Shown piece by piece: positions 23,241 through 26,160 of a DNA stretch of 28,441 nt (positions are counted from its first letter, which is position 1; each line of letters starts with the position of its first letter). The notes beneath the pieces were generated by a model, which was not told where the DNA came from, made no database searches, and saw only the letters and a list, made by a program, of their open reading frames with translations. Position numbers and translations under genes: made by a program. This DNA comes from a virus, in the IMG/VR virus record IMGVR_UViG_3300021599_000294, positions 1 through 28,441 of that record; one strand, 5' to 3'.

Positions 23241-23472
23241 TGTTACAGATGTTACACTTTGTTTACACTTTTTTTTCAATCTGTAACCTACTGCTGCAAG
23301 GATGTTACAGATGTTACAGATTATTATCATTATTATACTTACTATACTATACACACACACACACACACACGCACACATTATTTTATATGGGCTAATTGAA
23401 ATATGCATTTTATCTGTAATCTGTAACATTTATAGAGTATCTGATTCATTATCAACATTATAGGATGTTACA
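23241..23472. repeat. TGTTACA iteron-like cluster, candidate origin
   Basis: Direct copies of TGTTACA lie at 23241, 23250, 23303, 23312 and 23466, in two pairs with a 9-base period (unit TGTTACAGA). Inverted or near copies are TGTAACA at 23422, TGTAACC at 23282, TGTAATC at 23415 and TGTTTACA at 23260. They fill the gap between primase and helicase genes and reach into the end of the primase gene. An AT-rich stretch and an (AC)10 tract lie inside. This arrangement resembles iterons plus an unwinding element of replication origins; a repressor-binding array is the alternative. The gap (23233-23429) holds no convincing gene. Confidence 0.6.
23351..23370. repeat. (AC)10 dinucleotide repeat
   Basis: Ten perfect AC units, continued by GCACACAT. 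The stretch just before it (23319-23350) is AT-rich and low in complexity. Long dinucleotide runs are rare in phage DNA, and alternating purine-pyrimidine can flip to Z-DNA. It lies inside the iteron-like gap. Confidence 0.9.
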
Positions 23473-25541
23473 CTTCCTTTGATTTTTACCTCATAAGCAC
23501 GAATAGTCTTTGAACCATTCCTAAAAATGGTCTGTTCATAGCCACATTTTTTCAATGCTTGACCCATTCTTTTGGTGTTAGTTTTAAAAGTAGGATGTAA
23601 TTTTTGCAATTCCAGAATTACATCGGTGTTTGTCATTTTGCTTGTTGGGTCATTTTGGATATGTCTATTAATCAATTCGACCTCACTCATTACCTCGATG
23701 TTTTTTTCGTTGGCTTTGTTTAAGTATTCGATTTCTCTTTTGGTTAGAAACCAAGCCTCCTTATCCGACTTCCATTCGTTGTATAGTTCGATAAATAGTT
23801 TATCCTTATCAATCTTTATGTAAGCATCAAAATCAAAGCTAATCAAGTTTATTGGGATTATTCTTCGGTTACCAGTAGGGTCATTAATTACTTCAGCATC
23901 ATTCGATGTGCCTCCTAATACTGCTAAACGCAATAAGTCTTCAGATACTCTTCCGTATGGCATACGAATTGAGAATGTTTGTTGACTGCTCATACGTTTT
24001 AATTTTGTAGCATCTTTTTTTGACTTACCTCCAAACTCATCATCCACAATGAGCCACTTTTTTGTCATTAGTATTTCGGAGTCCTTGCCCTCATCCAAGT
24101 TACTTTCAGCATAAAATTTACGCAAATCTTTTGGCAATAAATTTCTGTAAAATTCAGTTTTCTTGATTCCTTGTTCTCCAGTAATAACTAAAATCATTAA
24201 CGAATAAGTGCCATAGGCAGAACCAATAAGACCTAACAACCACTTTTTAAGGTATGTATCTAAATAATCATCAAAATTATAGACACCATCATTCTCATAG
24301 ATTAACTGCTCAATTTCAAAGCACTTTTTTAGCTTATCAAATTCATTATCAGTTGTCAAATGTGAATTATGCTCAAACCAATTTCTAATGGGGTTATACG
24401 ATGTGCTATTGTCTTTATTTTGAATTAACGTAAAGACTTTGTCCTTTGAAATACCATCATCAATTTTTTGCCAAACTTTAGTGTAGAAATTTGCCAGAAT
24501 TCTGTCGGTCATTTCTTCACCATTAAATTCAAAATTGCGTGTGATTTCATTAAATTTTACATTGTTTAATTTTATAAGTTCAATTATGTCTTCAATCTCT
24601 GTATTTTCTTTTTTTAAATTAGGTTTAAGAAATTCATCTGCATCGGTAATGTTTAATTTTTTTAGGTCTTCTTGCGGATTATCAGATAACTTTACTATAC
24701 TCTTTATTTTTTCAGTTCTTTCCGATGTAGTGCTGATACCTGCTTGTCGAAAAATATAGTAGATACTTGCAATGCTAACTCCAGTTCCGCTTCTTTGCAA
24801 AGCTACATTGTAATCTCTTTCTGCTTGTCGGTGTGAATATTTTGGTGATGATTGGCAAAGTGAATGAAAATAGTTGCGACCACTTTCGCTAAATTCCTGC
24901 GTTAATGCAAATGCCAATCGAATGTAATCTTCATAGTTGTCGAATAAATTCATTGGTGCTGCCTTAACTACCATCTCATCAAAATCAGTTTTAACAACTA
25001 CTGGCTTCGGTTTTGGTTTGTCTTTTTTCTTTAGGTATGTCTTAAATGTTTTCGATTTTTTGTTTATGTAGATGTCTGGGTCATATGACACAAAACGCAA
25101 TCTGCTTGTGTCTTTGCAACTTTTGTCCAGCACAATAGAAAACTGCACCATAAAGTAATTTTCAAGCGAAAGAAACGCATCTAAATGCCTTGCACCATCT
25201 ATACGAATAAATACTGCATAGCCATTACCAGATAGTGAACGATGCACCGAGTAAACATATTCGTTGCGTTTTATTCGCTCAATATCAACTTCAGCAATCT
25301 GGTCTTTTGCATCAATGTCCAAGCAAATAAAACCACTATGTTCAAGCAATTTATTGGCTGCCCTTTGCTTGAATGAACCACTCGCAGTTACGCAAGTAGT
25401 TAACTCTTTTTGTGTGCGACCAGCACGAAAGTTTAGCACCTCATCTTGCCAACGACCATTTTTAATACCATCAAAATACTCATCAACCTCAATACTGGCA
25501 TCTGATTGGTTACTTTTTGCACTCTTAAATAATGATATCAT
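23430..25541 (-). CDS. Primase-helicase, BT4734-like plus VirE domains
   Basis: A 703-residue replication protein. The N-terminal part (about residues 35-170) matches the BT4734-like (PF08800) archaeo-eukaryotic primase-like domain: LDID (Asp75, Asp77), SVHRSLSGNGY and SRLRFVSYDPDIY. A PriCT-like helical region follows (about 195-275). The C-terminal part (about 400-620) is the VirE/VapE (PF05272) P-loop domain: Walker A-like GEQGIKKT (455-462), Walker B WLIVDDE (496-502), and GTSND with NRR (544-560) as sensor and finger residues. The usual GKS is GIKKT here. It likely primes and unwinds phage DNA. It has its own promoter, a long structured leader, and ends in the iteron-like region. Confidence 0.85.
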   Translation of the reverse strand: MISLFKSAKSNQSDASIEVDEYFDGIKNGRWQDEVLNFRAGRTQKELTTCVTASGSFKQRAANKLLEHSGFICLDIDAKDQIAEVDIERIKRNEYVYSVHRSLSGNGYAVFIRIDGARHLDAFLSLENYFMVQFSIVLDKSCKDTSRLRFVSYDPDIYINKKSKTFKTYLKKKDKPKPKPVVVKTDFDEMVVKAAPMNLFDNYEDYIRLAFALTQEFSESGRNYFHSLCQSSPKYSHRQAERDYNVALQRSGTGVSIASIYYIFRQAGISTTSERTEKIKSIVKLSDNPQEDLKKLNITDADEFLKPNLKKENTEIEDIIELIKLNNVKFNEITRNFEFNGEEMTDRILANFYTKVWQKIDDGISKDKVFTLIQNKDNSTSYNPIRNWFEHNSHLTTDNEFDKLKKCFEIEQLIYENDGVYNFDDYLDTYLKKWLLGLIGSAYGTYSLMILVITGEQGIKKTEFYRNLLPKDLRKFYAESNLDEGKDSEILMTKKWLIVDDEFGGKSKKDATKLKRMSSQQTFSIRMPYGRVSEDLLRLAVLGGTSNDAEVINDPTGNRRIIPINLISFDFDAYIKIDKDKLFIELYNEWKSDKEAWFLTKREIEYLNKANEKNIEVMSEVELINRHIQNDPTSKMTNTDVILELQKLHPTFKTNTKRMGQALKKCGYEQTIFRNGSKTIRAYEVKIKGSVTSYNVDNESDTL

Positions 25542-25558
25542 ATTTTATAAATTAAAGA

Positions 25559-25638
25559 AACCCCTAACAAAGTGCGCCACCGCCAAGAGGCTGCACGATG
25601 ATAGGGGTTATATTATTAAATTTCTTCAAGTTGGCGGT
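25559..25638 (-). ncRNA. Structured 5' leader of the primase gene (pseudoknot candidate)
   Basis: In the - strand RNA, an 8 bp stem AACCCCTA / TAGGGGTT (25602-25609 with 25559-25566) encloses a second stem GTGC-A-GCC / GGC-GCAC with one bulged A and a 10-base loop TCTTGGCGGT. Eight loop bases (TTGGCGGT, 25579-25586) are perfectly complementary to ACCGCCAA upstream (25631-25638). The pairing order a-b-a'-b' makes an H-type pseudoknot or two exclusive folds. The last stem ends about 18 bases before the primase ATG and is followed by U-rich sequence, so it could act as attenuator or translation switch. No known riboswitch class was recognised. Confidence 0.6.
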
Positions 25639-25649
25639 TATTTCGTTTG

Positions 25650-25681
25650 CAAATATAAGTAATAATTACTTAATCTGCAAA
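25650..25681 (-). promoter_or_regulatory. Bacteroidota promoter for the primase transcript
   Basis: This is the best promoter in the window: -33 TTTG (25678-25681), a 20-base spacer, and -7 TATATTTG (25650-25657) on the - strand. It lies across the end of the Gp157-like gene, and transcription would begin near 25643, giving a leader of about 100 bases before the primase ATG. Confidence 0.75.
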
Positions 25682-26160
25682 TTCCGATGTGTTTCTATCC
25701 TGCATCCAGTAACCTCAAAACCATCCTTTAACGCTGCCTTAATAGCTGCCTTATCGGCTTGTTCTGTTACTTTTACCACCTTGTAAAGTGATGGCAGTTG
25801 GTTTACATCATCCACTTCAACTGTTTCCGATTTACGAAAGTTGATTTTTACTAAAGGTGTTTTGATTTCATCAATGTTAAATAAATCCATTGCGTGTTTG
25901 ATTCGCTCCTTTAGATATTCTGAAGCCTTTTCACGTTGCTTTTTTAATGCTTGTAACCTTTTTATTTCAGCATCAATGGTATCAACATCAGCATCCATTT
26001 GCTTGATAACAAAGGAATAGGCAACTGATTTGTTTTGCAGTTGTTCTTCAGTAATGGCAAGTGCTTCCTCAAGAGAGGGGGTTAACTCACCCCCATTCTC
26101 TATAAGTTCTTCTGCTAACTGATTGTAATTTTGCTCAATTTGGAATATTGTAGTTTTCAT
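25666..26160 (-). CDS. Gp157-like siphovirus protein
   Basis: A 164-residue protein with an all-helical N-terminal two thirds, including a coiled coil (about residues 55-95, DADVDTIDAEIKRLQALKK), then a short beta region with IKTPLVKINFRKSETVEV and LPSLYKVVKV, and the closing KAAIKAALKDGFEVTGCRIE. This layout, with the K-x-x-(F/L)RKS-x-x(V) strand and the final KDG...G strand, is the siphovirus Gp157 family (PF05565), originally from phages of streptococci and often found beside recombination genes. Its role is not settled. The ATG overlaps the RecT stop as TAATG. Confidence 0.8.
   Translation of the reverse strand: MKTTIFQIEQNYNQLAEELIENGGELTPSLEEALAITEEQLQNKSVAYSFVIKQMDADVDTIDAEIKRLQALKKQREKASEYLKERIKHAMDLFNIDEIKTPLVKINFRKSETVEVDDVNQLPSLYKVVKVTEQADKAAIKAALKDGFEVTGCRIETHRNLQIK

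Follow-up and report, generated by a model that had tools for sequence, protein, structure and literature searches.

The 28,441-nt stretch of viral DNA analysed here (the window) carries, in minus-strand order, genes for an SSB-like protein, RecT and Gp157, then a leader, then genes for a BT4734/VapE-type primase and an SF2 helicase. The primase ORF reads in the same direction as the predicted promoter, which we take to be of the Bacteroidetes type and which is one of 11 pattern matches in the window (5.1 expected by chance); -7 boxes like that of the window stand upstream of the homologous leaders read. Judged from the promoter match, transcription probably starts within the first ~8 nt after the -7 box. 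The promoter spacer also contains a perfect inverted repeat (TAAGTAAT-A-ATTACTTA, window 25656-25672) that could be a repressor site.

Table 1. Genes and predicted elements at the leader locus (window coordinates)
Feature	Position	Strand	Remarks
Upstream gene, Siphovirus Gp157 / Mu Gam-like	25666..26160	-	end overlaps promoter
Predicted promoter, presumed Bacteroidetes-type	25650..25681	-	-33 TTTG 25681-25678, 20-nt spacer, -7 TATATTTG 25657-25650; pattern match
Predicted leader region	25542..25649	-	108 nt, -7 box to primase ATG
5' complementary strand	25631..25638	-	ACCGCCAA; sequence reading
HP2, terminator-like hairpin	25559..25609	-	8-bp base stem, internal loop, 7-bp inner stem, 10-nt loop
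Loop strand	25579..25586	-	TTGGCGGT, perfect complement of ACCGCCAA over 8 nt
U-rich tract after HP2 and AU-rich approach to ATG	25542..25558	-	
Primase-helicase gene under the leader (BT4734-like_N, PriCT_2, VapE-like)	23430..25541	-	

A preliminary description of this DNA had proposed a TTTG-N20-TATATTTG promoter, a hairpin with an 8-bp and a bulged-A 7-bp stem whose 10-base loop carries 8 complementary bases, and a U-rich stretch shortly before the ATG, and each of these was found in place. The base stem of HP2 (AACCCCUA/UAGGGGUU) is separated by an internal loop (UCAUC/UUUGU) from the inner stem (GUGC-A-GCC/GGC-GCAC, A bulged), which is closed by the apical loop UC+UUGGCGGU. The HP2 stem ends 17 nt from the primase ATG (25541), and the 10 nt past its last G contain 7 T, the stem-closing UU included. 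The leader holds TTG and GTG but no ATG ahead of the gene, and a leader peptide with a non-ATG start codon would still be conceivable.

The predicted fold of the window leader (-29.1 kcal/mol) is more stable than those of its shuffled versions (-18.2 +/- 3.1 kcal/mol; z -3.5, 0/200), and the combination of complementary pair and stem arises in 2.7% of 2000 dinucleotide shuffles, counted as a Watson-Crick match of at least 7 nt starting in the first 20 nt together with an enclosing stem of at least 7 bp. Taken singly, the window sequence is thus suggestive, moderately unlikely and no more, so that the comparative evidence decides. Copies of TTGGCGGT elsewhere in the window (6 in all against 0.33 expected) were considered as trans targets of the window code and rejected; the 4 extra copies lie inside genes, and some of these read as Gly-Gly by eye.

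Leaders of one design upstream of related primases

Relatives of the locus were collected with the window primase as query, with three further primase queries and with one search of bacterial genomes, which yielded a Flavobacteriales MAG locus (L115). The window query returned 66 loci, and upstream DNA was read in 63 (L044, L051 and L066 begin inside the gene). A leader of this design is found immediately upstream of the primase in 47 of these 63, with 24 distinct sequences, and in 7 of 12 further loci (L090, L098, L103, L115, L127, L137 and, weakly, L135). Sixteen loci of the first set have no leader in this position (L041, L052-L065, L067); a strict descriptor scan placed one elsewhere on the same DNA in ten of them (L041, L054, L056, L057, L058, L060, L061, L062, L064, L067), those of L054, L060 and L064 preceding an ORF that starts M(Q/K)LREYQER and is helicase-like by eye. 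L063 has a leader with just a 6-nt match, and no leader was found in the DNA examined for L052, L053, L055, L059 and L065 (5/63). Among the five further loci with nothing directly before the primase, L140 carries a leader before another ORF, and L104, L138, L139 and L172 have no convincing leader elsewhere either.

Leader families do not align in sequence, and it is the order and spacing of the parts that agree: a TATATTTG-like box, the 5' strand, an A/U-rich spacer, the complementary-loop hairpin, a U-tract and the ATG. Comparison establishes this anatomy at the sequence level, with a 7-10 nt segment near the predicted 5' end of the RNA (in many families inside the loop of a small hairpin, HP1) and, for most of the leaders read, a start codon no more than ~25 nt further on, often that of a replication gene. 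Leader length is 97-114 nt in 17 of 18 representatives (L135, 143 nt). The 5' strand begins 9-16 nt past the -7 box in 14/18 (6 nt in L127, 2 nt in L135); the automatic script misplaced this strand in L036 and L043, where reading by eye gives the pair AGGGACG/CGTCCCT for L036 and 6 nt alone (ATGCAG/CTGCAT) for L043. Automatic stems were off for several representatives, and with stems placed by eye HP2 ends ~12-26 nt before the ATG in primase leaders. Other complementary pairs include AGGGACG/CGTCCCT, AGCTGGAA/TTCCAGCT, ACGACCAA/TTGGTCGT, GGGTGAGAA/TTCTCACCC, GTAGCTC/GAGCTAC, AACTAGGA/TCCTAGTT and GGTGGAAG/CTTCCACC. The chance of the pair-plus-stem pattern in shuffles of a single leader is 1.6-13.6% among the 18 representatives, with L135 at 31%; 16 of the 18 pass this test, and L043 and L135 fail.

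Unrelated leaders occur between conserved flanks. Primases 84-88% identical to that of the window carry a window-type leader in L021, L031, L035 and L045 and a GTTGCGGC/GTTGCGC-type leader in L022-L029 and L032-L034; in L022-L029 the DNA on either side of the leader can still be aligned with the window by eye, and the leader itself is wholly different. Within the window clade, 4 of 16 aligned sequences (L005, L021, L035, L045) have an inserted C in the 5' strand together with a compensating G insertion in the loop, and changes in the HP2 stem keep pairing (by eye).

The strict descriptor gave 55 distinct matches in the relatives (scores 24-43), amounting to ~52 leaders; three of them, two with ACGAATGG and one with TAACATC, appear to be chance matches. 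A negative set of 119 viral loci (1.06 Mb, mostly unrelated) yielded a single match, with a score of 22 that was also reached in 4 of 10 shuffled windows. These loci derive from a broad GTTGCG-type pattern, which was too loose (among the matches listed, mostly unrelated DNA), and L239, a true leader, was left out of the negative set. A relaxed scan of whole contigs (looser promoter, ATG optional, score at least 24) was noisy, 4 of 6 shuffles also matching at up to 35, and the matches used from it were those at 39-40 or already known. The covariance model R1 found L054, L056, L057, L058, L060, L061, L067 and L450 among the relatives' loci, L058 being on the same contig as the R1 training row L368. 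Weaker R1 matches (L062, L063, L449, L348) scored 25-29 bits, compared with a 25.7-bit chance match in 392 kb of control DNA, and count only through the matching codes there, which in L063 amount to just 6 nt. Mirror matches of R1 on the opposite strand (L054, L058) were ignored, and R1 had no match in 199 host genomes, a search run without a positive control there.

Two records are peculiar in their assembly. In IMGVR_UViG_3300042310_000167 (L017, L030; 39.6 kb) primase loci with slightly different leaders lie near both ends, possibly reflecting a mixed assembly or a tandem. In IMGVR_UViG_3300044846_001718 (L103, L136; 31.6 kb) the primase is split over both record ends, which suggests a circularly permuted near-complete genome; no tyrosine integrase was found in it.

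Loop codes, compensatory change and the terminator-like hairpin

The complementary segment behaves as a variable code on a constant scaffold. A scan of IMG/VR for the scaffold family GGCTGCGAGG..GAGCCG-code-CGCAGC matched 58 contigs, among them the GC-rich and unrelated L377, which was removed. The remaining 57 carry 11 different 7-nt loop codes, and a perfect complement of the code lies within 75 nt upstream in all 57. Pairs were counted in 25 of the 57 contigs, aligned and chosen to cover all codes: 98% are standard pairs, the covariation score is 0.335 compared with 0.145 +/- 0.010 after shuffling (0/500), and the loop helix shows 47 two-sided and 0 one-sided changes, with 9 unpaired cells, all at the outer pair. 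The compensatory changes for which the preliminary description had suggested searching homologous leaders were therefore found in the loop helix; the scan pattern fixed the inner stem, so its invariance is uninformative. The mean pairwise difference of the spacer (0.35) is as high as that of the code (0.27-0.33); the remarkable feature is therefore that complementarity is kept, and not that the sequence varies.

Code identity was compared with flank identity in 55 (downstream) and 56 (upstream) of the 57 contigs, the contig pairs not being independent. Where the starts of the downstream genes (up to 450 nt) are 95-99% identical the code differs in 31 of 35 pairs, compared with 4 of 19 at 99% or above; for upstream DNA the corresponding figures are 64 of 74 at 90-95% identity and 0 of 12 at 99% or above. 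Many phages have a code in common; CTCTGAC, for instance, occurs in 16/57 contigs. Between L365 and L370 both code strands differ while the rest is mostly alike, with several changes in the apical-loop segment.

The order of the strands (a-b-a'-b') and the compensatory changes in both helices are those of an H-type pseudoknot, as the preliminary description had proposed. This assignment draws on the pair counts of the scaffold family and the paired insertion of the window clade, and coexistence of the two helices in one molecule is argued from topology. In many other families, however, the 5' strand lies in a hairpin loop of its own, so that "kissing loops" describes them better than a plain H-type fold. 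A stem of at least 4 bp (HP1) encloses the 5' strand in 19 of 24 leaders tested; compared with shuffled flanks the joint p is ~8e-8, an optimistic value since the leaders were hand-picked and are partly related, and singly 10/24 have p<0.05 (window, p=0.34). HP1 is clear in the scaffold family, with 7 bp and two-sided change at 3 pairs. The alternative in the preliminary description, a bistable switch, is not indicated, the hairpin and the loop helix being both conserved and topologically able to coexist, although some competition between them could still occur. In ten minimum-energy folds the code bases are mostly unpaired, 60/79 in the 5' strand and 68/79 in the loop strand (window, 8/8 and 5/8; lowest, L127, 3/8), and isolated code duplexes are predicted at -6.7 to -14.2 kcal/mol (window, -12.6).

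By shape, a stem followed by a U-tract lies between the promoter and the first gene. The 10 nt after HP2 contain a mean of 6.6 T in 18 leaders found by homology; for L038, L042, L098 and L115 the automatic stem end was set at a later GC, giving counts of 2-5 T, and by eye their U-tracts, too, adjoin the stem. Several members have interrupted U-tracts, and a terminator scan of the window limited to loops of 3-8 nt did not list HP2, which has a 10-nt loop. The strict scan required T-richness, so its matches are no test of the U-tract. HP2 and its U-tract have the shape of an intrinsic terminator, which makes transcription attenuation the first candidate, and we lean towards the view that the leader represents a new RNA class, an attenuator in which loop pairing sets read-through of the operon; termination and the direction of its effect are inferred here from sequence, as are the transcription start and any action in trans.

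It is possible, if rather doubtful, that the element works in cis as a structure alone, a pseudoknot or kissing fold that guards the 5' end of the mRNA or offers ribosomes the start site, with a non-terminating HP2. The short distance from HP2 to the ATG in primase leaders fits such a role, and Bacteroidia ribosomes are described, in the available part of the source, as working without Shine-Dalgarno pairing (PMC9976891), so that an AU-rich gap could suffice. A cis structure, however, has no need for a U-tract directly after a GC-containing stem, and it leaves the exchange of codes on a constant scaffold unexplained.

Leaders before other genes and in cultured phages

The preliminary description had assigned the element to the primase gene. 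A real a-b-a'-b' element does lie upstream of the primase, but it is not specific to it and also precedes non-homologous genes. The window-type leader pattern matched 31 stretches, of which 23 are contigs that the primase search had already returned and the other 8 lack a primase relative downstream. A 42-aa ORF follows the leader in L181, L182, L188 and L195 and, by its start only, in L191 and L198; as read from translations, a DnaB-like helicase stands behind this ORF in L182, and in L192 the leader is followed by an ORF of 49 aa, by one that is nuclease-like and, separately, by a helicase. L205 ends at the start codon after the leader. The first ORFs of 42-49 aa in L182, L188, L195 and L192 begin MKIFFIKSP.../MKSYIIYSP... 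and lie in alternative replication modules. An AGGGACG-type pattern gave 10 matches: six known primase contigs, two stretches of unrelated GC-rich DNA that were dropped (L332, L340), and two (L334, L337) in which the leader precedes a primase-polymerase/helicase-like protein (read from translation).

Second leaders precede other kinds of gene. In G006 and G012 one stands before a C5-methyltransferase-like ORF (read from translation), and in Flavobacterium phage mumin9-1 one stands before an endonuclease gene annotated by PF07463. The second leader of L211, L187, L201 and the G006 and G012 records has the code GTAGGAG and its C5-methyltransferase-like ORF begins MNVLSLFDGMSCGQ...; these phages also carry a window-type primase leader. 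A NUMOD4-HNH-like gene (read from translation) lies between leader and primase in L041. In L344 / G011 a NUMOD4-HNH-like gene with its own leader (10-bp complement) sits directly before the primase, a position that in close relatives is occupied by the leader itself.

The type of leader is thus decoupled from the protein encoded downstream, and for this reason autoregulation by the primase was judged unlikely. Recognition of the folded leader by some other protein, for example a phage single-strand-binding protein, also seems improbable. Autoregulation of T4 gene 32 is a precedent for a protein reading its own leader, and SSB-type (DUF3127) genes lie nearby in the window and in mumin9-1; one leader type, however, precedes non-homologous replication proteins, one primase family carries unrelated leaders, and with a varying loop code a protein could read shape only. 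A ligand or protein could still have some role. Least probable is an element acting as DNA, such as a replication origin, operator or cruciform beside the primase gene: the position at a replication operon and the palindrome in the promoter spacer would suit it, but the similar promoter and ATG distances, the U-tract on one strand and the leaders before methyltransferase-like and HNH genes point to RNA.

Leaders also occur in cultured phages. Mumin9-1 has two, with codes GTCGTCG and GTGGAACG, and snusmum6-1 and mymlan6-1 have the same two codes. Stinky9-1 has its first leader in common with mumin9-1, and its second, whose start codon is further off, has the code GTGAGACG (read by eye), which is also found in the second leaders of hattifnatt, hemulen, sniff and snork; that of morran9-1 has the code GTGAGAAG. 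The search for the second leader returned 46 records, with GenBank and RefSeq entries counted separately; over the 141-nt query 28 of them are identical to stinky9-1, 16, those of mumin and related phages, reach 90-95%, and 2 belong to morran9-1. Mumin-type phages, stinky-type phages and morran9-1 therefore carry three codes on one scaffold, and their hosts are Flavobacterium LMO6 or LMO9. In the available text of their description the hosts are given as strains LMO6 or LMO9, and the mumin phages are reported without lysogeny genes (PMC7077304). A small "hypothetical protein" annotated in morran9-1 (L458 38-181) overlaps the leader and is possibly a spurious gene call. The leader of FCL-2 has the code CATCCAC; 79 records are similar to this region, of which at least 9 cover most of it and at least 51 end within ~15 nt of the leader start. 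In four such records read, V186, FCV-3 and V175 have the code GTAGAGAG, and FCOV-S1 has 7/8 of those pairs. No convincing leader was found in P12024S and phi46:1.

Proposed attenuation, possible pairing in trans and known systems

In the attenuator that we favour, HP2 would be an intrinsic terminator attenuating the operon, and loop pairing would set the frequency of read-through by RNA polymerase. Since the loop strand is transcribed ahead of the 3' arm of HP2, its helix with the 5' strand has the chance to form early and would then either hinder the terminator or lock it. The terminated leader, ~85-100 nt long, would carry both complementary segments, so that leaders of the same code could pair in trans, and such pairing would make read-through depend on leader dosage.

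A more speculative extension is that the pairing serves as an identity code in trans. Terminated leaders of a resident or co-infecting phage would then bind nascent leaders that carry the same code, turning their operon off or permitting its expression, and this would give copy-number control, same-code interference and favour for rare codes. We suggest only tentatively that a 7-10 nt pairing limits replication operons of the same code and that code turnover keeps co-infecting phages orthogonal; by analogy, this might amount to an RNA-only, many-valued counterpart of plasmid incompatibility in apparently virulent phages, a comparison that we make with reserve. Codes that differ in most pairs at 95-99% downstream identity, the three codes on one scaffold in mumin-type phages, stinky-type phages and morran9-1, and the differing codes of the two strong leaders within single genomes (G006, G012, mumin9-1) are consistent with it, as is the control of P4 replication genes by RNA-induced termination, so far as the source text describes it (PMC4825925). 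However, the code is common to 15/19 pairs at 99% or more downstream identity and to 12/12 at 99% or more upstream, some codes are common, and cassette exchange alone, with no selection for diversity, would give similar variation. The tyrosine integrase domain PF00589 occurs in 0/36 virus records, which may be fragments, and this makes classical prophage immunity unlikely. If the code does act in trans, it would account for the way in which apparently virulent phages restrict or evade one another in one cell; the question is open to direct testing, since phages cultured on the same Flavobacterium strains differ in code.

Leader-RNA attenuators and complementary-loop RNAs are already known, and several systems resemble the leader in part. 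The alpha protein of phage P4 is a primase-helicase. In the accessible account of P4, pairing of CI RNA with seqA and seqC causes premature termination of the replication genes (PMC4825925), so that, as here, complementary untranslated segments lie before phage replication genes and termination is the means of control. According to that account, however, the CI RNA of P4 is processed and has two targets, and the sites are Rho-dependent (PMC4825925), whereas the present leaders have one complementary pair, an intrinsic-terminator shape and a many-valued code, and show no sign of lysogeny in the 36 records, possibly fragments, that lack PF00589. RNA pairing likewise governs attenuation or copy number in pT181, pIP501 and ColE1, and RNA I of ColE1 controls incompatibility, according to the available part of the source (PMC5415839). 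In these plasmids, however, the antisense RNA is a separate transcript of the opposite strand; here both segments lie in one leader.

Among named RNA families, c4 antisense RNA (RF01695) is listed for phages, and the STAXI motif is given as a repeated pseudoknot near SSB and other DNA genes, in the part of the source at hand (PMC2864571); no Rfam family is matched at threshold in the window or in 19 relatives. Scored against Rfam 15 at the gathering score, neither the window nor the 19 loci, which had been selected for their leaders and total 87 kb, gave a match. PK-repBA (RF01089) and PK-repZ (RF01087) are, like the present element, pseudoknots in replication-gene leaders, and both gave sub-threshold matches in the window (E 0.23 and 1.5), with scores of 16 and 12.3 compared with gathering scores of 45 and 44. 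Literature searches brought up no published description that we recognised as this element, in agreement with the preliminary description, which knew of no named class with this layout. What appears to be new is a class of leaders, placed before phage early operons, whose loop code is self-complementary and many-valued. If true, it would extend early gene control in phages of Bacteroidetes-type bacteria by a further class of RNA and supply, on constant scaffolds, a natural collection of matched RNA loop pairs. A possible lead is HMP_4078, a 109-bp Bacteroidetes candidate that is placed near D5 N domain and integrase genes in the available text of its report (PMC8040213).
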